IMG/VR virus record: IMGVR_UViG_3300027851_000021
Location: 1-64,000 of that record
Origin: a virus
DNA length: 64,000 bases
Reading direction: 5' to 3' (one strand)
Below, piece by piece: positions 31,631 to 57,430 of the stretch (within the stretch, counting starts at the first letter, position 1; the number at the start of each line of letters is the position of its first letter). The notes beneath the pieces were generated by a model, which searched no databases, had not been told where the DNA came from, and saw only the letters and a program-made list of their open reading frames with translations. Made by a program: the position numbers and the translations under genes.

Positions 31631-31660
31631 ATTATATAGGCATTTAATTGGAACTATCAA
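31631..31660 (-). promoter_or_regulatory. promoter inside the end of the polymerase gene
   Basis: Minus-strand TTGATA (31655-31660) and TATAAT (31631-31636) with an 18-nt spacer, ahead of the 123-aa gene. Confidence 0.6.
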
Positions 31661-33986
31661 CGGTTTTATTTGGTTGACCATTATTTAATTCTTTTACAGG
31701 AGTTCCCCATAAATAACACATTTTAGCTTCAGCCACAAAAGGAACTTTAGTTAACTTCCAATCAACTGCCACTTGTGCAAATGTATCAATACCTATACGC
31801 TTAACCATTGCAACGATAGTTGGATCATTAGGCACCTCGATAACAATGGAGTCATGTACTAGATCCACGATCTTCGCACCCAGCTTAGCTATGATAGGAC
31901 GAATACGTATTGCTGTATGCGCCGTAATATCGGAAGCAGTAGATTGGTGTGGGAAGTTAGCAAATTCGTTTTGTACTCCATTCAAGTTTTCTTTTGTTAC
32001 CAGTCCAGGACGACATTTACGACCGAAGCAAGTAGTTAATGTCTGACGCTTTCTAGGTGCATTACGGCATTTATCTTGGAATGCTTTAGCAACAGGAAAC
32101 TGCTCCCAGAATGAATCAATTTCTTTCTGTGCTTGCTTTTCTGATATACCAAATTCTTCTGCCAATGAATGTGCAGATCTTCCATAGATAACACCGAAGT
32201 TAACGGCCTTAGCACGAACATATTGATCCTCGGTATAGGAATCACCATATCGATACGCAGCAGTCTCTTTATGCAAAGAACGATCAGTAGAATTATAAAT
32301 GGCCAATAAAGCAGGGTCTCCTGATTGAATAGCCAATGATCGTAATTCTGCCTGTGACGCATCCAAGTCTAATAATACATAACCTGGAGAAGCCATAAAC
32401 ATTGCCTTAAGGAGTGGATCTCTAGGAATATTCTGCAGGTTAGGATCTCTACAAGATAAACGACCTGTGCGAGTTCCATGGATTAAGAATGTAGGATGAA
32501 TCCTTCCATCATCGTGTACGTGTTTAGCCATACCAATAACATAAGTACTCAATGCCTTATTAGCTACACGCCATTTAGACAAAGCATGCTTAAATGGAAA
32601 TTCTGGCCATAAAGCAACTGTCTTAGCATCGGAACTTCTCTTAGCACGTCCTTTAACCCGAATACGAAGTTCATCGTACACATAAGCACACACTTGTTGC
32701 GAGCTACCTGGATTAAGTTCTCTTCCTACAAGCGTATTAATAGCCTCTTTAAGATCCTTAACTTCCTGTTCCAGCCTTATTTTATTTTCTTCCCATGCAG
32801 TCCAGTTAAATGCAAAACCATTAAGCTCCACATGATATAACAATTCCGACAAAGGAATAAAGGTTTGTGTATACAGTTTCTCCAGCTTAACGTCATCACG
32901 TACTCTTTGACGCAATACATTATAGATCTGAAGGGTTTTACTTAAGTCTTTACCTTGGTAACTAAAAAGCACATCGAATGGAATAGTAGAGTAATCCCGT
33001 TTAGATTTTGGAATACCTTGCTCTTCAAACCAGTTATCCACAATATGCTTATGCGTAGGTGCAGACAATACATCTGACGCTACTGTATCCAAGTCATGAA
33101 CACCGCGAGTTTCATCCAATGCATAATTAAGCAGCATTGTATCTTCGTCAACACGCGCATTATAACCATCACGTCTTAAAAATGCAATATCGAATTTACC
33201 GTTATGCCAGATCCATTTAATTTCAGGATCTTCCATTACATCCTTGAACATAGGAATTAATTCTGGAGGACAAATCCAAGCCACTCTAGGATCAAAACAG
33301 AAACCTGTAGTAAGGATTTTATCTTTACGGCGATTTAATCCTCCAGTCTCAATATCCGATGCTACTATACCAGCACGTTTAATTTCTCCCGCTAACCACT
33401 TAGCATTATCCTTTGTAATCAATCGTGTAACAGGTTCTATATAATGCTTTGTAGGGGTACCTTTGTAGATGTTGACTGCCATATCCAAATCTTCTTGGAA
33501 CTTCTTATACGATCCCATTCCACGTAAAAGAAATGCTGGATGTACTGCAGCAATAATACCATGCTTAGCCAATGGAGTCTCAAAGCGATGACCACGACAT
33601 TGGGTAATCTTTAAATTGTAATCTCCTGTTAATCCCCATAAAGCACCATTACCTAAAGCAACGATAACATCTCTAGGATGTTTCATCAATTCTGTATGCA
33701 GCCTGTTAGAGCAACATTGAACAGCGTTAGCCAGAATATCTGGATCCTTCTTAGTAGGAAAGCAAGATAAAGCTGTCATATATAATGGCTCTACGTCTAA
33801 TGGAAGGTTATCCATTAACATTTTACCGTTAGGACCCATAAAAGGCATCCCGGTAGCAAGTTCATTTGCCCCGGGACTTTCTCCTACTATAACGAACCTT
33901 GAATCCTCTGGACCACGATTACCAATTTTCCTACTATTGAAGGGGCAGTTATCGCACCCCTTCGCCTTCACATCACATGTATCCAT
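31644..33986 (-). CDS. uracil-DNA-glycosylase-like / DNA polymerase A fusion
   Basis: A 780-aa replicative polymerase. Residues 1-175 form a family 4 UDG-like domain with likely Fe-S cysteines (C11, C14, C75, C91), GESPGANE (35-42), MGPNGKML and HPAFLLRG (149-156). Residues ~200-380 form a 3'-5' exonuclease (DIETGG 211-216; HNGKFD 261-266). Family A polymerase follows: motif A DLDASQAEL (540-548), motif B RAKAVNFGVIYG (591-602), motif C VHDS (710-713), where the usual VHDE has Ser. The 5' nuclease domain is absent. It is the last gene of the preQ0 cluster transcript and touches dpdA. Confidence 0.92.
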   Translation of the reverse strand: MDTCDVKAKGCDNCPFNSRKIGNRGPEDSRFVIVGESPGANELATGMPFMGPNGKMLMDNLPLDVEPLYMTALSCFPTKKDPDILANAVQCCSNRLHTELMKHPRDVIVALGNGALWGLTGDYNLKITQCRGHRFETPLAKHGIIAAVHPAFLLRGMGSYKKFQEDLDMAVNIYKGTPTKHYIEPVTRLITKDNAKWLAGEIKRAGIVASDIETGGLNRRKDKILTTGFCFDPRVAWICPPELIPMFKDVMEDPEIKWIWHNGKFDIAFLRRDGYNARVDEDTMLLNYALDETRGVHDLDTVASDVLSAPTHKHIVDNWFEEQGIPKSKRDYSTIPFDVLFSYQGKDLSKTLQIYNVLRQRVRDDVKLEKLYTQTFIPLSELLYHVELNGFAFNWTAWEENKIRLEQEVKDLKEAINTLVGRELNPGSSQQVCAYVYDELRIRVKGRAKRSSDAKTVALWPEFPFKHALSKWRVANKALSTYVIGMAKHVHDDGRIHPTFLIHGTRTGRLSCRDPNLQNIPRDPLLKAMFMASPGYVLLDLDASQAELRSLAIQSGDPALLAIYNSTDRSLHKETAAYRYGDSYTEDQYVRAKAVNFGVIYGRSAHSLAEEFGISEKQAQKEIDSFWEQFPVAKAFQDKCRNAPRKRQTLTTCFGRKCRPGLVTKENLNGVQNEFANFPHQSTASDITAHTAIRIRPIIAKLGAKIVDLVHDSIVIEVPNDPTIVAMVKRIGIDTFAQVAVDWKLTKVPFVAEAKMCYLWGTPVKELNNGQPNKTVDSSN

Positions 33987-34735
33987 TATTTATATGCCCC
34001 AATTAATCCTTCAATCATACCAACGTTATAAGCCATATCAACATTATAACCACGACATAGTTCAAAGTATTCATTCCGAGGACGTAATGTACTTGTATCC
34101 CCATTATACTTTTTACCTTCCCATCCAGCTCTTAATGGTGAAGCTGAATCGATACCTTTAACGCCATACATCTTAGTACATGCAATATCATCTGAAAGGT
34201 TATTAGACATTCCTAAAAGATGTACTTGGAAATTACGTAAGGTTAAACGATTAACTAATGGAATCCTTGAACCTTGACGATTAGTAACTTCTCTTGGAAC
34301 ACCTACCATGAATGGAACATCTTTATGCATAGTTGTAATTTGTTCTACACACCATAAAGCTTCATCTGGATCTTTACCTTGAGCTGCTATCATATAACCT
34401 ACATTGCTCAAGAATTTCTTGCCATACTGCTGAATAGATTCTTTAGCCATTGCAATAGTTACTTCGGCTTCATTCAATTTATCTGGCAATACAATGAAAG
34501 TAGGATTAACGATAGAAGCTGCCATTACCATAGTATCCATAGGAACTGGAACTCCTAATTCGATAAGGCTATTGTCTAGAATAATAGTACCATCGAAACC
34601 TTCCAGCAATTGTTTATATAGATGCGGCTTAGCAATAATCTCGTGGGCAAGTAAAAGAAGGTAATTATTTAAAAACCCTCTTTCCTTCATTTGTAATAAA
34701 ACCTCAACAGGTGCGATTGGTGAATAACGTGCCAT
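33986..34735 (-). CDS. dpdA: DNA preQ0 transglycosylase (phage DpdA, TGT family)
   Basis: 249 aa from MARYSPIAPVEVL, chosen because AAAGGAG stands 11 nt upstream; an ATG at 34759 is also in frame. It is a compact tRNA-guanine-transglycosylase relative of the phage DpdA type, with LLLLAHEII, IILDNSLIELG and MVGVPREVTNRQG motifs, MSNNLSDDI and GIDSASPLRAGW. Such enzymes swap guanine in DNA for a 7-deazaguanine base. It follows queE by 30 nt and abuts the polymerase. With queC, queD, queE and folE nearby, the substrate is probably preQ0. Confidence 0.88.
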   Translation of the reverse strand: MARYSPIAPVEVLLQMKERGFLNNYLLLLAHEIIAKPHLYKQLLEGFDGTIILDNSLIELGVPVPMDTMVMAASIVNPTFIVLPDKLNEAEVTIAMAKESIQQYGKKFLSNVGYMIAAQGKDPDEALWCVEQITTMHKDVPFMVGVPREVTNRQGSRIPLVNRLTLRNFQVHLLGMSNNLSDDIACTKMYGVKGIDSASPLRAGWEGKKYNGDTSTLRPRNEYFELCRGYNVDMAYNVGMIEGLIGAYK

Positions 34736-34765
34736 TTCTCTTCTAACTCCTTTAACCATTGTTTA

Positions 34766-35536
34766 TTAGCGACCTTTATCATTGCTCCATACCAAAGCAT
34801 GAAGCTGTGGAAGGAATCTTGCTTTATTTAATACCGGATGTTTGTAAAGTTTCTCTGCGGTGTTACGATAATGTTCTAACAGCAACTTAACATGTTCATC
34901 ACCACTAATCTCTCCTTCAGGTAACCATTTATTTCCTAAGGACAAAAATAAAGGTGCATCAGGTGTTAACTGCCAGATATCACATGCAAAGTCAAAATCC
35001 TCTTCATCGAAGACTACTACCTTAACACATACTTCTGGATGAAATGTACTAGGCTGTTCTTTACGCATGTATTCAGCCTGATTAATAAACTGAATCCAAG
35101 GCTCATAAAGACTTTCATTAAACATTTCTCCCATACCTGGACCTTTAGGAGATACTGTAACTAAGTTACATTTCATAAGCCATTTAGGGAAGAATGTACC
35201 TTGTGTCTCGATTGCAACTTTCATTCCACCCATTTGGATAAGAGTAACTAACTCCTCCAAATTATGTACACAAGGATTACCTCCTGTAATAGTTACCCAA
35301 GGTGTATTATATTCAGCATTCATAGCTAATAGTTCTTCAGCTATTTCTGCTGCGGTCTTATATTTAGCCCAGGCTTTAATTTGTACTGGGTCTACTGCAT
35401 GCTTGGAATCACACATAGTACATTTAGAATCACATACTCCTAAACGAAGGAAGAATGTTTGTTTTCCACACATAGAACCTTCGCCCTGAATTGTAGGACC
35501 AAATAATTCTATTAATGGCAATGTTTTTGATTTCAT
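34766..35536 (-). CDS. queE: 7-carboxy-7-deazaguanine synthase
   Basis: A 256-aa radical-SAM enzyme that converts carboxy-tetrahydropterin to 7-carboxy-7-deazaguanine. The opening GPTIQGEGSMCGKQTFFLRL and the CDSKCTMC cluster motif (residues ~34-41, CxxxCxxC) are diagnostic, followed by TITGGNPCVHN. It is read from the promoter at 35560-35588 with AAGGAG before the start. Length is normal for the family. Confidence 0.95.
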   Translation of the reverse strand: MKSKTLPLIELFGPTIQGEGSMCGKQTFFLRLGVCDSKCTMCDSKHAVDPVQIKAWAKYKTAAEIAEELLAMNAEYNTPWVTITGGNPCVHNLEELVTLIQMGGMKVAIETQGTFFPKWLMKCNLVTVSPKGPGMGEMFNESLYEPWIQFINQAEYMRKEQPSTFHPEVCVKVVVFDEEDFDFACDIWQLTPDAPLFLSLGNKWLPEGEISGDEHVKLLLEHYRNTAEKLYKHPVLNKARFLPQLHALVWSNDKGR

Positions 35537-35559
35537 AGGAGAGCTCCTTAAGTTAATTT

Positions 35560-35588
35560 ATAATAGCATATTTCTTCGGAAATATCAA
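35560..35588 (-). promoter_or_regulatory. promoter of queE-dpdA-polymerase
   Basis: Minus-strand TTGATA (35583-35588), a 17-nt spacer and TATTAT (35560-35565). The -35 box lies just inside the end of the upstream exonuclease region. Confidence 0.6.
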
Positions 35589-35595
35589 GCGCATT

Positions 35596-36237
35596 CTATT
35601 TGTCTTTCCCACTAAATGCCGATTCCCGTACGGACAATGGCAGTTTGAAAAATACCTTACCAACTGCACGAACGTCTTCTAACGCATTGTGAGCACCTTC
35701 AAAACCTTCACCGAACAAGAATTCATGTACTTCTGTAAGTGTAGGGTTCTTATAAGGACCAAAGCCATAACGTAACATCTTTTCTGTAGCAGGTAATTTA
35801 CAAATAGGCATGTAAGTCTGCATAGTACAGAAATATTTCTTATAACGGTAAGACTGTTTGATATCATTGTATGTTCGACGCATATTAATATCTAACAATT
35901 GCTTATCAAACCAATTATTATGTGCTACCATAAGCTTAGCAGGTCTTACAAAATCTTTCCATGCATCTAAAACGATCTTACGGTCAACGCCTTCATCCAT
36001 AGCGCGTTCGAAGGTGATTCCGTGTGCTTCAAAGGCTTTAATCGGCATTTCAGTATAACCATCTGGCTTAATGATCATATCAAATGTACCTAATTCAGTT
36101 CCATCCGATTTATATAATACAGTCGCAAGCTGTACTATATGAGGTTGTTCTTTGTGCGTCATAGGTAATTTTTTATTAGGTAAGCCAGTAGTCTCAGTAT
36201 CGTAGGCTGCCATAATAGCTTGTGGTATCATTTCCAT
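35596..36237 (-). CDS. DEDDh 3'-5' exonuclease (DnaQ-like)
   Basis: 213 aa with AYDTETTGLP near residue 11 (Asp and Glu of motif I), VAHNNWFDKQLL near 103 (motif II) and the late HNALEDVRAVGK near 184 (motif III, His and Asp). This is the epsilon/RNase T-like fold and could proofread or trim DNA ends. It lies between queD and queE in the modification operon. Confidence 0.9.
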   Translation of the reverse strand: MEMIPQAIMAAYDTETTGLPNKKLPMTHKEQPHIVQLATVLYKSDGTELGTFDMIIKPDGYTEMPIKAFEAHGITFERAMDEGVDRKIVLDAWKDFVRPAKLMVAHNNWFDKQLLDINMRRTYNDIKQSYRYKKYFCTMQTYMPICKLPATEKMLRYGFGPYKNPTLTEVHEFLFGEGFEGAHNALEDVRAVGKVFFKLPLSVRESAFSGKDK

Positions 36238-36240
36238 TTA

Positions 36241-36744
36241 TTACCTCGATTGTGCTGGATATGTTGCAATCCCATTAGGTGTTTCCCATACCTTGATATA
36301 AGCTAATTCTCCCATACCTTCACAACGTTTTGCTATAGGTACTAAAAGACGCTCAAACCAGTGTTTAGCCATATTCTCTGCAGTAGGTACAAAAGGTACT
36401 AAGTATAGTTTACCCCCAGAACCTTCTCCAAGCCAATATCCTTGTTCATCAATTACTTTCTGTGCATTAGTAAGGTTATCATAAAATAAACTTGCTAATG
36501 GATCTTGGATCCACAATGTCATTCCATGATCACAAGGTGCATCGATATATTCCATCATAAGTTCTTTTAAGAACCCAAAATCTAATACCATACCTTCTTG
36601 TTCTCCGGTTTCAAACAATTTACCTCTTACACAGGCTTGAACAGTATATCGATGTCCATGTAGGTTTTTACATTTCGATCCATGATGCGTCACTCTATGT
36701 CCCGCATCTATTCCGATCTCTCGGATAATTTCAAATGCACTCAT
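36241..36744 (-). CDS. queD: 6-carboxy-tetrahydropterin synthase
   Basis: The 167-aa second enzyme of preQ0 synthesis. Zinc-binding histidines and the catalytic Cys appear in DAGHRVTHHGSKCKNLHGHRY (given in part), followed by GMVLDFGFLKELM and CDHGMTLW. It lies 9 nt after the folE stop. Length and motifs are normal. Confidence 0.95.
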   Translation of the reverse strand: MSAFEIIREIGIDAGHRVTHHGSKCKNLHGHRYTVQACVRGKLFETGEQEGMVLDFGFLKELMMEYIDAPCDHGMTLWIQDPLASLFYDNLTNAQKVIDEQGYWLGEGSGGKLYLVPFVPTAENMAKHWFERLLVPIAKRCEGMGELAYIKVWETPNGIATYPAQSR

Positions 36745-36753
36745 TTAATACTC

Positions 36754-37512
36754 CTAAAATTTATGTCCAGCTATTAAGGTCAAGAATTCAGACTTTGCGG
36801 AGGGATTCATAGCAAATACGCCACGCATAACTGAAGTTGTAGTCTCAGAATCATCCTTAACGCCTCTCCAGCACATACAGAAGTGTGATGCTTTAAGAAC
36901 TACCGCTAATCCTACAGGTTCTAATTCTTTTTCCAAGTAGTCGGCTAATTGTACAGTAGCTTCTTCTTGAATTGTCGGACGAGAATTAATCCAATGTGCT
37001 AAACGATTGAATTTCGAAAGTCCAATTAGTTTTGATCCAGGGATAACACCGATCCAAACATTACCGATAATTGGTGCCATATGATGTGCACACATTGAAC
37101 GAATTTTGATTGGACCTACAACCATCATTTCATTCAGTTTCTTAACGTTAGGAAAGCTTGTAAGTTCTGGCGCTTTATTAAAACGACCCATCATTACTTC
37201 CTGGATGTACATCTTAGCAACACGCTTACCAGTCTCTTTAGTATTATGATCATTTTCACGATCAATAACTAAGGTATCTAGTAAGTTCTCAATATGTACT
37301 TGGGCTTCTTTTACAAGTTCGTCCAATTCACCTTCTTGAATAAAGTCGGCAATACAGTCGTTAGCAAAGAAAGGCATTTCTGCCTCTCTTAAGCGTTGAC
37401 GAATACGTTCGGATACTTTTAACAAAGGTGCTTTTTTAGACATTTCATTCATCAGTGACATATTCTCTAAATTTTTATTGGCTTGTACTTCTATTGGGTA
37501 ATCTTCACTCAT
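36754..37512 (-). CDS. folE: GTP cyclohydrolase I
   Basis: This 252-aa enzyme makes dihydroneopterin triphosphate, the first step toward preQ0. The N-terminal ~75 residues are an extension; the core has MCAHHMAPIIGNVWIGVIP (zinc Cys and His), LIGLSKFNR and RPTIQEEATVQLA. The late SHFCMCWRGVK supplies the second Cys. It starts 3 nt after queC and leads into queD. Confidence 0.95.
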   Translation of the reverse strand: MSEDYPIEVQANKNLENMSLMNEMSKKAPLLKVSERIRQRLREAEMPFFANDCIADFIQEGELDELVKEAQVHIENLLDTLVIDRENDHNTKETGKRVAKMYIQEVMMGRFNKAPELTSFPNVKKLNEMMVVGPIKIRSMCAHHMAPIIGNVWIGVIPGSKLIGLSKFNRLAHWINSRPTIQEEATVQLADYLEKELEPVGLAVVLKASHFCMCWRGVKDDSETTTSVMRGVFAMNPSAKSEFLTLIAGHKF

Positions 37513-37515
37513 ATT

Positions 37516-38181
37516 CTACTCCGCATATTTAGTTGGGTCAACAATGCCTGCTTTAGCAAAGGCTTCTTTTCTTGCACGACATGTTGGACAAGTACCACAA
37601 TGATCTTCATCACCTTTATAACAAGACCAGGTATACTTCAAAAGGGATTCATCAAGGCTTGCACCTTTATTAACGATATCCGCTTTAGATGACCATTGGA
37701 ATGGTGTAAGCAAACGAGTCTTTTGATAAGTACCAATAAAGATCGCATTCGCCATAGCACCATTGAATTCTGGTGTACAATCCGGATAAGCCCAGTTAGC
37801 GGCATCTTCAGCATGGGCACCATAATAAATGAAATCATAACCTTCATGTTGTGCTTTAGAAGCAATGACAGAGAGCATCAGACCATTACGAAATGGAACA
37901 TATGTAGGAGAAATGCCTTCAATTTGATCGTAGCTAATGTTCGGAATTTCTACTGCGCGATCTGTGAGCATAACCCCTTCGATCTTCGGTAATACTACGA
38001 TTTCACGTTCAACACCAAGCTCTTTACAAAGTGTTAATGCGTACTCTAATTCTTTAATATGTCTTTGTCCATAATCGATACCGAGGGACTTGACATTCTT
38101 TGCGCCATGTTCAGCTACAGCCATCATTAATGTAACTGAACTGTCTAAACCGCCACTGTGTAATACTAATGCTCTTGACAT
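37516..38181 (-). CDS. queC: 7-cyano-7-deazaguanine (preQ0) synthase
   Basis: A 221-aa ATP-dependent enzyme that converts carboxy-deazaguanine to preQ0. The PP-loop LHSGGLDSSV lies near residues 7-16 and the zinc site CYKGDEDHCGTCPTC near 186-200. The protein ends soon after the zinc site. No glutamine-amidotransferase domain is fused, unlike the Gat-QueC of phage 9g, so archaeosine-type bases are not expected from this gene. First gene of the cluster, after the terminator at 38219. Confidence 0.95.
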   Translation of the reverse strand: MSRALVLHSGGLDSSVTLMMAVAEHGAKNVKSLGIDYGQRHIKELEYALTLCKELGVEREIVVLPKIEGVMLTDRAVEIPNISYDQIEGISPTYVPFRNGLMLSVIASKAQHEGYDFIYYGAHAEDAANWAYPDCTPEFNGAMANAIFIGTYQKTRLLTPFQWSSKADIVNKGASLDESLLKYTWSCYKGDEDHCGTCPTCRARKEAFAKAGIVDPTKYAE

Positions 38182-41009: not shown

Positions 41010-42473
41010 TCACGTTGGTGGCGCATCGCCTAATACTTCCCTACTACGATCAACGTTGCCACTCATAATTTCTAACTGCCTTTTCATAAGCACGTTATCA
41101 TGAATGACATAATAGATCATAACATCCTCAGTAATACCTAAACGATGCAAACGATCTTCAGCTTGGTAATTATGATCTTGATCCCATTCGAAACCGATCA
41201 TAAAGCCATAAGATGCTTTGGTCAGATTAAATGAAGTAGCGAATTGCGTTGAACACAATATAATGCCTTTATCTGCACATTTCCATGAATCAATTACCTT
41301 TTGGACCTTAACAGAATCCATACCTCCACGAAGCTCGAAGACAGTATGCTTTAACTCAGACTGAATGAACTCCTTGAAGAAAGGAAATGCAGCTGGAAAC
41401 GGACAGAATATAACAGTGTGCTTAACTTCTTGGTCTTCTATAAATTCAGTAACCGCGCGGAGACTAGAACCCACATCCAAAGTAGGATCAAGCAGCTTAG
41501 GACATACAAAAAGTTGCCTACAACGGAGCTGATTTGTTGCTTGAATGGCTGAAAGTAAAAAAGAACCATCAGCGCGCCCAAGGATACCAGTAGTATCAAT
41601 CTGTTCATAAACTCTTCGTTCGTCATCAGACATCTCCACATAAAACTTAATACGGTGCTTAGCAGGCATATCTCCAGACTTTAAACGCCGAATCATTATA
41701 GTGGACAAAATCTCTTTGAGTTCATCCATATTCTTATTACCCATATTTTCTTTACCATACGAACCATCTTCGATAATACAGAAATGGTTAAGAAACTGCC
41801 AATATGAAGGGAATCTATCAGGATATAATAAGAACAAATAACCATACATATGCTCCACACCTTTAGAGACTGGAGTTCCTGTAATAATATACATGTCTGT
41901 CGATTGAAATTCCGTGAGCAGATTGAACACTAGCGTTTTACGATTCCTGGCTACTTTATGAGCTTCGTCAGGCATTATTAAATCCCAATTGCGTGGGATT
42001 ATATCTTGATCTTCAAGTAATACCTTATAGGTACAAACGTAGATACATTCTTGGCTTTTAACCTTTTTCCAAAGCTCTGCACGTTTCTTCTTATTACCTT
42101 CAACGATAACAAGCCGATCAAATAGTTCTGGGAACCATAATTTAACTTCTTTGCGCCAAATAGATAATGCGGATTTTGTACAAGGAATAAAAGTACGTTT
42201 TAAAAGAGAACCTCGCAGATAAGCTGAAGCTAAGGCAGTAAGAGTTTTACCTAGCCCCATCTTATCCGCAAGCAACACACGATGATGAGTTGTTAGAAAT
42301 TTTATGCCTTCAATTTGCGTTGGCTGTACTGATGCTTTGGGATCCGTCAACTGAATTATTTCGTTGAGCCTCAATACGAGATTTGCAATCTGGGCATCGT
42401 CTACAGAGTTCAGCAAGGTTAGTCTCCACGTTAATGCAGGATGGAATATGTTTCCACTGTTCTGCGTATGCAA
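41010..42473 (-). CDS. SNF2/DEAD-type helicase
   Basis: A 487-aa SF2 ATPase with a Q-like motif (QPTQIEGIKFL), Walker A KMGLGKT (71-77), DEAH (169-172), TGTPVSKG and QAEDRLHRLG in motif VI. Such proteins remodel DNA in phage replication. The frame overlaps the upstream glycosylase-like gene by 164 nt. The only start that far up is TTG (42473) without a clear ribosome-binding site, so the true N-terminus may lie later, at a TTG between residues 33 and 41. Confidence 0.85.
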   Translation of the reverse strand: MHTQNSGNIFHPALTWRLTLLNSVDDAQIANLVLRLNEIIQLTDPKASVQPTQIEGIKFLTTHHRVLLADKMGLGKTLTALASAYLRGSLLKRTFIPCTKSALSIWRKEVKLWFPELFDRLVIVEGNKKKRAELWKKVKSQECIYVCTYKVLLEDQDIIPRNWDLIMPDEAHKVARNRKTLVFNLLTEFQSTDMYIITGTPVSKGVEHMYGYLFLLYPDRFPSYWQFLNHFCIIEDGSYGKENMGNKNMDELKEILSTIMIRRLKSGDMPAKHRIKFYVEMSDDERRVYEQIDTTGILGRADGSFLLSAIQATNQLRCRQLFVCPKLLDPTLDVGSSLRAVTEFIEDQEVKHTVIFCPFPAAFPFFKEFIQSELKHTVFELRGGMDSVKVQKVIDSWKCADKGIILCSTQFATSFNLTKASYGFMIGFEWDQDHNYQAEDRLHRLGITEDVMIYYVIHDNVLMKRQLEIMSGNVDRSREVLGDAPPT

Positions 42474-55704: not shown

Positions 55705-56754
55705 TTAAAATGGTATATCGTCGGGTTGATCTTCGTAAGAAAGGTCTGGATGATATTCTTTGAGAGCCTTCTCAATAATATCCGCCATAGCTTCCATATC
55801 TATACCTTCTGGTAATGTTACTACGATAGTAAACTTACCATCACGTTTCTTCTTTAAGGCTCTAGTGGCTTTAACTAAGTTCTCGTACATTCGGATAACT
55901 GTCGGATTGACTTTATCCTTACTTTTCTTAATTAACCGTTTTACGACCGATAAGAAGGTATCGCTAGCAGAATCACGACCTATAAAGTTAAGTGTACTTT
56001 CATAATGTGTTTCAGGTGCAGTAACAATCTTCTCAATCAGTTCGGAATCATTAGAAGCTACAATGCCTTTAACAAGTTTGTCGGTAAAGCTACTTGTACT
56101 GTAAAGAGTCCTATCCTCTGTAAGATAAGCATAACCTGTCATATCATAACTATGGAGTAGAGGTTTCTCGAAAGCTGCTACACGTATTCCTTTATTGAAA
56201 ACCGCATTACTTTCGCCTTCATGAATATCCAAATCTCCATCTACCGTTTTAACAGCCTTTGAAGACAAGAAAACGTCTGACTTTTCAATTAAGACTTGAA
56301 CCATTTCATCACCCTCGACGATAATCTGTGTCACATCCTCAATTGGTGTAGGATCCATGTTATCTGGAAATACGTCTCCGCCTTCATCGATGGTATTGGA
56401 ATAGAGTTCTCTGAATGCCATCCATAGTTCCCAATTCTTCCCGAGATCGGTTGTAAATGGGAGATCTAAGATGGTGTGGATTGAATCATCCGTGCGATTA
56501 ATTCCTGTCATCTGGATAAAGTTAAATGATTTGCCGCGAACGTCATCTGGTTTGAGTTCGAAAGTGTATTCGATCATACCTATCCAAACAGTTATTTTTT
56601 GATTGTTCCTTAGACATACAGCGATGGCATACTTTAGTCCTGTACCGAATTGACCAATGGGAGACTTATTATCTCCTTTAGCCGATACACCGAAGGTTGT
56701 AATACCTCGAATATCTAATAGACCCCTATTTCGGAATATTACTTTATTTTCCAT
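55705..56754 (-). CDS. GHKL (Bergerat-fold) ATPase with permuted motif order
   Basis: This 349-aa protein holds Hsp90/MutL-type ATP-binding motifs. A DIRGI box (residues 14-18, like DxGxG) is followed by a lid and by IGQFGTGLKYAIAV (33-46), close to the Hsp90 IGQFGVGFYSAFLV box. The N-box comes afterwards: RELYSNTIDEGG (115-126) with Glu116, Asn120 and Asp123. In normal GHKL proteins the N-box precedes both G-boxes, so the fold seems circularly permuted. The C-terminal 150 residues are of unknown type. It is coupled (TAATG) to the Gly-rich 206-aa gene. Confidence 0.7.
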   Translation of the reverse strand: MENKVIFRNRGLLDIRGITTFGVSAKGDNKSPIGQFGTGLKYAIAVCLRNNQKITVWIGMIEYTFELKPDDVRGKSFNFIQMTGINRTDDSIHTILDLPFTTDLGKNWELWMAFRELYSNTIDEGGDVFPDNMDPTPIEDVTQIIVEGDEMVQVLIEKSDVFLSSKAVKTVDGDLDIHEGESNAVFNKGIRVAAFEKPLLHSYDMTGYAYLTEDRTLYSTSSFTDKLVKGIVASNDSELIEKIVTAPETHYESTLNFIGRDSASDTFLSVVKRLIKKSKDKVNPTVIRMYENLVKATRALKKKRDGKFTIVVTLPEGIDMEAMADIIEKALKEYHPDLSYEDQPDDIPF

Positions 56755-57374
56755 TAGCGTACATTCCTACGTTTGAGTTCTGCTTCGAATTTATCTTCCC
56801 AGTCGCGCCAGTATTGAAGTACAGCATCTCCATCATATTCTTCTGTACTACAACGGTTAACATAACTCATTTCTTTATGAATATTCTGTCTACGCTTTTT
56901 GAGCCATGCAATTGTATTCTCGATATGTTCAGTATCCATCTCTGGAAGAGGTAACTCTCTTTTACGGGACGCTTTCCATACTGGAGCATTACGAGTACCG
57001 ACTGGCCATTCAGCTTCAAGAATACCTATACGTTTAAATAAACCTTGAATAAAGCTGGTAGATACAATAACTTCAGGATCTCCAGCACCTCCTCCACCTC
57101 CTCCACCTCCACAACAGAATAACTCCGCTTGAGTACTTACTCCTCCAGACCCACCAGTAGCGTAACCTGGTTTTGGTTTATTACTATGCTCACTGAAAGT
57201 AGAACCTGCAAATGCAGTATTTGGAGATGCTTTAAACCGGGTAATAGTATCAAAGATCTTTTCGGTAATTTCTGGTTGGATTAATACGATATTATCATCA
57301 GGGGTAAGTAAGAATAGACCTTCTTTTGTCAGCGAAATGATGCGACATTTGTCTACATAGATTTTTTGTGTCAT
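56754..57374 (-). CDS. unknown protein with CC-Gly8 linker
   Basis: 206 aa from the ATG at 57374 (GGAGA upstream). A beta-rich N-terminal half (residues 1-60) is joined by a Gly/Ser linker with CCGGGGGGGGAG near residue 95 to a helical C-terminal half with IENTIAWLKKRRQNIHKEM. It is the first gene after the promoter at 57402-57430 and directly precedes the GHKL ATPase, so the two may form a pair. No family recognised. Confidence 0.65.
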   Translation of the reverse strand: MTQKIYVDKCRIISLTKEGLFLLTPDDNIVLIQPEITEKIFDTITRFKASPNTAFAGSTFSEHSNKPKPGYATGGSGGVSTQAELFCCGGGGGGGGAGDPEVIVSTSFIQGLFKRIGILEAEWPVGTRNAPVWKASRKRELPLPEMDTEHIENTIAWLKKRRQNIHKEMSYVNRCSTEEYDGDAVLQYWRDWEDKFEAELKRRNVR

Positions 57375-57401: not shown

Positions 57402-57430
57402 ATTATAGCTGAAAACTTATGGACTATCAA
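57402..57430 (-). promoter_or_regulatory. promoter of the GHKL pair
   Basis: Minus-strand TTGATA (57425-57430), a 17-nt spacer and TATAAT (57402-57407). It lies within the gap ahead of 57374. Confidence 0.75.

Follow-up and report, generated by a model that had tools for sequence, protein, structure and literature searches.

A phage protein family with a very probable circular permutation of the GHKL ATPase fold

To our knowledge, the GHKL ATPases (gyrase, Hsp90, histidine kinases, MutL and MORC) share one fold, and the order of the segments within it has been treated as fixed: an N-box, then a half comprising D-box, lid, G-box and sheet, then the transducer. The Asp of the D-box (DxGxG) binds adenine, Hsp90, GyrB and MutL have a free N-terminal arm ahead of the N-box, and the canonical order is, on general knowledge of GHKL proteins, the ancestral one. 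No circularly permuted GHKL, Bergerat, HATPase or Hsp90-like protein was found in the literature searched.

The closest relatives with canonical order are the phage proteins of PHROG 6077. The members read (4MG, Ro1, A7_1, Vibrio phages, a Moorella phage, an Exiguobacterium phage, Ab18 and PaMx11) carry, in order, an N-box, a D-box (DDGPGI in the Moorella phage), a lid with STK or SSK, the G-box IGxFGEGxK and a transducer-like part with NRDR or LDRDR. The group spans Vequintavirinae, Abidjanvirus and the Moorella phage (MTATph1), Vibrio phage 1.158.O being among its members, and in some records its proteins are named 'histidine kinase-like ATPase', 'sacsin-beta sandwich' or 'RIIA lysis inhibitor'. 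One of these canonical sisters passes the gathering score of Pfam HATPase_c_3 (27.0 bits vs a cut-off of 25), and the Moorella phage sister matches Pfam HATPase_c at 4.8e-5.

The window analyzed here is a stretch of 64,000 nucleotides from an IMG/VR virus record that totals 66,307 bases, and it contains a real open reading frame (ORF) of 349 aa at 55705..56754 on the minus strand. A profile search matched the product to PHROG 8203 (E 9.1e-61, residues 3-277), whose function is unannotated; the product also matched PHROG 6077, best over residues 9-77, and a Pfam search with the native protein gave no match. The segments of the protein, as read from alignment, profiles and a structural model, are as follows.

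55705..56754, minus: predicted circularly permuted GHKL ATPase-family protein, 349 aa (PHROG 8203, E 9e-61; conserved boxes, model, hhalign)
56722..56745, minus: residues 4-11, strand ending in the D-box position F-x-N-x-G, with Asn for Asp (N 37/47, T 10/47)
56659..56721, minus: residues 12-32, ATP-lid region (TTFGVSAK; G22 and K26 invariant in the alignment), modeled with low confidence, as a mobile lid would be
56608..56658, minus: residues 33-49, G-box IGQFGTGLKYAIAV..R and helix (alignment, model; hhalign to the canonical G-box)
56452..56598, minus: residues 53-101, GHKL-sheet strands, the last now leading into the N-box helix (model secondary structure)
56377..56433, minus: residues 108-126, N-box helix WELWMAFRELYSNTIDEGG, apparently displaced from the N-terminus (profile columns 105-139 = canonical 4-38, E 1.6e-6)
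56314..56334, minus: residues 141-147, strand after the N-box and probable permutation point, which precedes the D-box strand in canonical sisters (model, hhalign)
56050..56256, minus: residues 167-235, transducer-like domain with LTEDR at 211-215, NRDR or LDRDR in canonical sisters (collinear hhalign)
55843..56046, minus: residues 237-304, helical region, not followed by the minigluzincin-like C-terminal domain that YuA-type relatives have (alignment, models)
55708..55734, minus: residues 341-349, EDQPDDIPF, acidic C-terminal tip resembling that of SSB (sequence)

A tblastn search with the 349-aa protein matched 73 phage records. Most belong to Yuavirus (YuA gp29) and to Bordetella phages; Dinoroseobacter phage R26L and Brevundimonas phages are represented as well. 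At least 296 relatives were confirmed in IMG/VR, and bacterial species genomes hold relatives at only 14 loci. The PHROG 8203 proteins (YuA gp29 and relatives, Mesyanzhinovviridae/Rabinowitzvirinae) are of the same family and the same permuted order, at 30-53% identity to the window protein, the nearest being L010 (53%). YuA-type members differ in having a minigluzincin-like C-terminal domain (with EExxH) and mostly a GEPL end, whereas the window protein lacks the domain and ends in DDIPF. The matched records are nearly all named 'hypothetical protein', single ones 'HATPase', 'ATP-binding protein' or 'hydrolase, metallopeptidase'; the GHKL nature of the family is partly known to annotators. 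Huge uncultured phages carry permuted members too (L124:2480-3739, in the 462-kb phage LR756500, and L125:2456-3913, in the 595-kb phage LR756511); these members form the deepest branches of the permuted group in the tree described below, where branches are long. An artefact or misassembly of a single genome as the source of the permuted order is ruled out by the many independent contigs and isolates.

The original prediction placed the G-box ahead of the N-box, and the two lie exactly where it put them: IGQFGTGL at residues 33-40 and RELYSNTIDEGG at 115-126. The order is the same in all of the roughly 70 PHROG 8203-family members scanned in which both boxes could be read, with the G-box falling within residues 30-52 and the N-box within 100-133. 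A canonical N-box upstream of residue 14, which would have spoken against the prediction, was looked for and not found; no scanned member starts far enough upstream to contain one. An N-box hidden ahead of the annotated start was also rejected, the open frame being only 353 codons and the relatives starting at about the same place.

In an alignment of 47 members, G22, K26, G34, F36, G37, T38, G39, K41, R49, W108, R115, E116, L117, N120, D123, E124 and R215 are invariant. The G-box, GxFGTGxKYA after the lid, is unchanged throughout and has the GHKL pattern GxxGxG, and the N-box helix has the expected ExxxN and D (E116, N120 and D123, 47/47). The D-box is the exception: the first strand ends in its position, F7-x-N9-x-G11, with Asn (37/47) or Thr (10/47) for the usual Asp, so that the motif reads F-x-N/T-x-G in place of DxGxG. 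Most PHROG 6077 sisters likewise lack this Asp. The DxxGI box that had been proposed at residues 14-18 (DIRGI) is not conserved, position 14 being D, N, P or A and position 17 mostly A or S. All members examined run D-box position, G-box, N-box, against the canonical N-box, D-box, G-box. With Hsp90/HtpG, MutL and GyrB, the GHKL ATPases that have a transducer domain, the family shares the N-box E/N/D and the G-box GxxGxG; it differs from them in segment order and in the replaced D-box Asp, and no significant direct sequence match to them was found.

The order was compared with that of the canonical sisters by profile alignment. PHROG 6077 positions 3-40 match the later part of permuted genes and positions 42-100 the earlier part, in two independent records, and no collinear full-length match to PHROG 6077 was seen, the ATPase domain matching only as blocks in reversed order. 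Aligned in native order by hhalign, the permuted family gives two alignments to the canonical one with block order reversed: query columns 21-84 pair with canonical columns 46-110 (probability 97.3%, E 2e-11) and query columns 105-139 with canonical columns 4-38 (probability 90.1%, E 1.6e-6). When residues 93-149 are put before 1-92, a single alignment spans canonical 3-109 (probability 98.9%, E 2e-17) and the score rises from 79.0 to 115.7; a doubled profile, with no cut site supplied, crosses the junction by itself (score 117). When the cut was placed at 30, 120 or 135 as a control, the alignment stayed in two pieces; placed at 50 or 70 it gave one, as expected because both of these also restore the N-box ahead of the G-box. 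Outside the ATPase domain the families are collinear (full native profile 20-254 = canonical 46-243), and the reversed blocks together with this collinearity indicate that the N-box segment was relocated and the transducer stayed in place. Because homology to the canonical sisters marks the order as a permutation, the protein is classed, as far as its sequence goes, as a permuted GHKL variant and not as an ordinary member.

Searches against Pfam were not significant in either order (best HATPase_c_3, E 0.17 in 1 of 47 native sequences; E 0.07 in 1 of 14 un-permuted ones), and PDB sequence searches with the permuted family gave no significant match. Un-permuted sequences joined by a GSG linker did match Hsp90 in the PDB, but the linker imitated the Hsp90 motif DTGIGM and the matches disappeared with a KPET linker; direct PDB sequence searches were therefore excluded from the evidence.

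An AF2 model of the 349-aa protein, built from 47 family sequences, has a mean pLDDT of 90 and a pTM of 0.80; confidence drops only in the lid (21-40) and at the C-terminus. Its first strand is followed by the lid, the G-box helix, four strands, the N-box helix and two further strands, then by the transducer strands and helices, an order that fits the proposed fold. A sequential Foldseek search of BFVD returned several proteins at prob 1.00. The identifiable ones (from Erwinia phage pEp_SNUABM_01, Edwardsiella phage IW-1 and Pseudoalteromonas phage H101) belong by sequence to the canonical sisters, and their superposition is broken (rmsd 13-14 A), the pattern that a permutation produces when the search is sequential. 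Against the PDB, Foldseek gave no match below 1e-3, which is likewise to be expected when a permutant is searched sequentially; the top match was to Hsp90, and the Hsp90 matches were weak (E 3e-3 to 6e-3). Sister homology, model and BFVD matches together support the circularly permuted Bergerat/GHKL fold that had been predicted, and in the permutation itself our confidence is very high.

In the YuA-type model the extra C-terminal domain has a minigluzincin/selecase fold (Foldseek prob 0.99), with EExxH in place of the catalytic HExxH; the metallopeptidase motif is thus missing from these relatives, and the whole domain from the window protein. The canonical sisters of Moorella phage MTATph1 (L123:2330-3670) and Exiguobacterium phage vB_EalM-132 (L129:1989-3302) have a zincin-like C-terminus that keeps HETLH or HETIH. 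This reads as a GHKL-metallopeptidase fusion whose active site appears to have been lost in the permuted line.

In a tree of 62 rows placed in common order, one branch parts 49 permuted from 13 canonical proteins with support of 100/100; the tree is unrooted and its branches are long. The split is what one event would give, and the permutation may have arisen once in phages, probably via in-frame duplication and trimming. YuA, with the permuted form, is placed in Rabinowitzvirinae and Ab18, with the canonical form, in Bradleyvirinae, both within one virus family, and their ATPase genes have homologous genes directly upstream (E 1e-14), for which reasons the two forms are placed, by gene order, at the same position in sister subfamilies. 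PHROG 6077 proteins are alike in lid, G-box, sheet, N-box and transducer, all homologous, and in the slot that the Ab18 copy shares with YuA, and unlike in having the N-box first. The upstream pair (YuA gp28, L007:5602-5967; Ab18 ORF33, L128:5707-5925) encodes a small probable membrane protein.

The reading that best accounts for these observations, to which we give a probability of about 0.6 as a whole, is a permuted GHKL fold that works as an ATP-driven switch in a DNA-metabolism module and docks through an SSB-like tail. Alignments, profiles and tree demonstrate the block order, its conservation, the homology to canonical sisters and the clean split directly; the functional parts are of lower confidence. 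In the proposed arrangement the N-terminal ATPase segment (strand, N-box helix, next strand) would have moved behind the D-box/lid/G-box half, giving D-box, lid, G-box and sheet, then N-box, then transducer. ATP would be bound via the usual N-box Glu and Asn and the G-box, and the dimer would close through the transducer domain, as in MutL- and Hsp90-type switches. The permutation would also place the pre-N-box arm inside the chain, so that closure could not use a free N-terminal strap. A putative nucleotide-driven switch of this kind is probable, and the invariance of the N-box Glu and Asn, of the lid Lys and of the G-box speaks for a nucleotide site that works. The Asn or Thr at the D-box position in 47/47 may mean altered nucleotide recognition, with adenine binding altered or lost.

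That substitution is also the main ground for supposing that the permuted fold does not hydrolyze ATP and serves as a nucleotide sensor or a purely structural scaffold. The absence of the Asp from most canonical sisters fits this proposal, as does the EExxH of the YuA-type minigluzincin domain, which indicates that the family tolerates dead domains; a dead site, however, would not need the N-box, lid and G-box residues that are invariant in 47/47, and we regard a non-hydrolyzing protein as unlikely. That the short boxes are alike by chance in an unrelated fold would agree with the lack of a Pfam match and of a significant PDB match for the 349-aa protein, but this is scarcely credible: the boxes are conserved in about 70 members, two blocks are homologous to the canonical GHKL sisters (E 2e-11 and 1.6e-6) and un-permuting yields a single alignment, and the hhalign result contradicts it. 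The original prediction had likewise judged chance improbable, a view strengthened by the at least 296 IMG/VR relatives and the reversed-order homology. Little more can be said for the dedicated two-component machine that the original prediction saw in the protein and the product of the upstream ORF, whose features are as follows.

56754..57374, minus: upstream ORF of 206 aa with a CC-Gly8 stretch; an orphan, probably co-transcribed (TAATG overlap with the 349-aa ORF)
57402..57430, minus: promoter-like site upstream of the 206-aa ORF, TTGATA-17-TATAAT (11/12, sigma-70-like consensus match only)

The ORF and its TAATG overlap are as predicted, and one promoter-like site lies upstream of both genes. 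Neither phage records nor viral contigs nor any of the retrieved loci yielded a relative of the 206-aa product, no neighbor gene is common to PHROG 8203-family loci in general, and family members evidently live without such a partner; a dedicated partner is therefore not supported, and we consider the two-component machine very unlikely. The promoter claimed for the pair corresponds to one 11/12 sigma-70-like site, where about 0.2 are expected per 3.5 kb, and this consensus match is not proof of a promoter. The Gly8 after CysCys is encoded by a GGT/GGA repeat at window 57090-57110, possibly a tract of variable length.

A further alternative likens the protein to T4 rIIA, as a chaperone-like or anti-defence factor whose targets would be host proteins and not DNA; rIIA, which has a GHKL domain, is listed among counter-defence systems (PMC7824862). 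It draws on the 'RIIA lysis inhibitor' label of some canonical sisters, on a weak match of the Moorella sister to PHROG 2979 RIIA (E 0.03) and on Hsp90 being the top, weak, PDB fold match. No significant PHROG match to RIIA exists, however, and none at all for the 349-aa protein, nor was a conserved rIIB-like partner or other conserved neighbor seen; a role of this type is rather improbable. For the preferred reading, of a switch acting in the phage DNA-replication/repair module, the surroundings are more favorable. The 349-aa gene sits among DNA-metabolism genes: those for an 810-aa DUF3854 protein, ThyX and RNase H are close by, and UDG-DNA polymerase A, a ligase and the SNF2 helicase are encoded at a greater distance. 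The canonical copy of Ab18 adjoins a ligase and precedes an exonuclease. Gene neighborhood and SSB-like tail together favor DNA metabolism, a role that is plausible at slightly less than even odds.

Within the window, the DNA polymerase A gene (31644-33986, minus) has a 3'-5' exonuclease and is fused to an N-terminal uracil-DNA-glycosylase-family domain (Pfam), and the SNF2-family helicase gene of the replication module lies at 41010-42473, minus. A preQ0/queuosine-type cluster at 34766-38181, minus, comprises QueC (37516-38181), GTP cyclohydrolase I (36754-37512), QueD/PTPS (36241-36744) and a radical-SAM QueE-like gene (34766-35536); a 257-aa ORF that adjoins it (33986-34759) may be a DNA-modifying transglycosylase. 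The set suggests, as a guess, 7-deazaguanine DNA modification.

The bacterial SSB tip, DDDIPF, recruits repair and restart proteins (PMC5872125). The window protein shares the terminal DDIPF, although it is by its sequence a GHKL protein and not an SSB. Such tips end 6 of 53 family members (about five lineages) and 9 of 614 neighbor ORFs (p 5e-4, only a guide, as family rows are not independent), and some of the nine look like true SSB tails. In the family they occur in forms without the C-terminal zincin-like domain. The other ends of this kind, in family proteins of L008, L054, L057, L059 and L088, are DDEVPF, EEVPF, DDVPF, VEIPF and PDMPF, and none of these proteins is an SSB. As a lead, the DDIPF tip suggests docking of the 349-aa protein to host proteins that recognize the SSB tail; we hold this putative mimicry as tentative. 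More speculative, and unlikely as a whole, is the fuller picture of a natural GHKL permutant of one origin in phages that would close without a free N-terminal strap, be tethered by its SSB-tail mimic to host repair and replication-restart proteins, and let its ATP state gate access to the phage fork.

Within the literature searched, there appears to be no earlier account of the permutation, of the canonical sisters or of the slot that the two forms share. The permutation explains why Pfam profile searches miss a family found in hundreds of viral genomes. A permutant and canonical sisters at one slot in related phage subfamilies form a matched pair, which would test the need for a free N-terminal arm in ATP-gated dimerization and also the wiring between ATP site and transducer, which such a rearrangement should change in an ATP switch of this kind.
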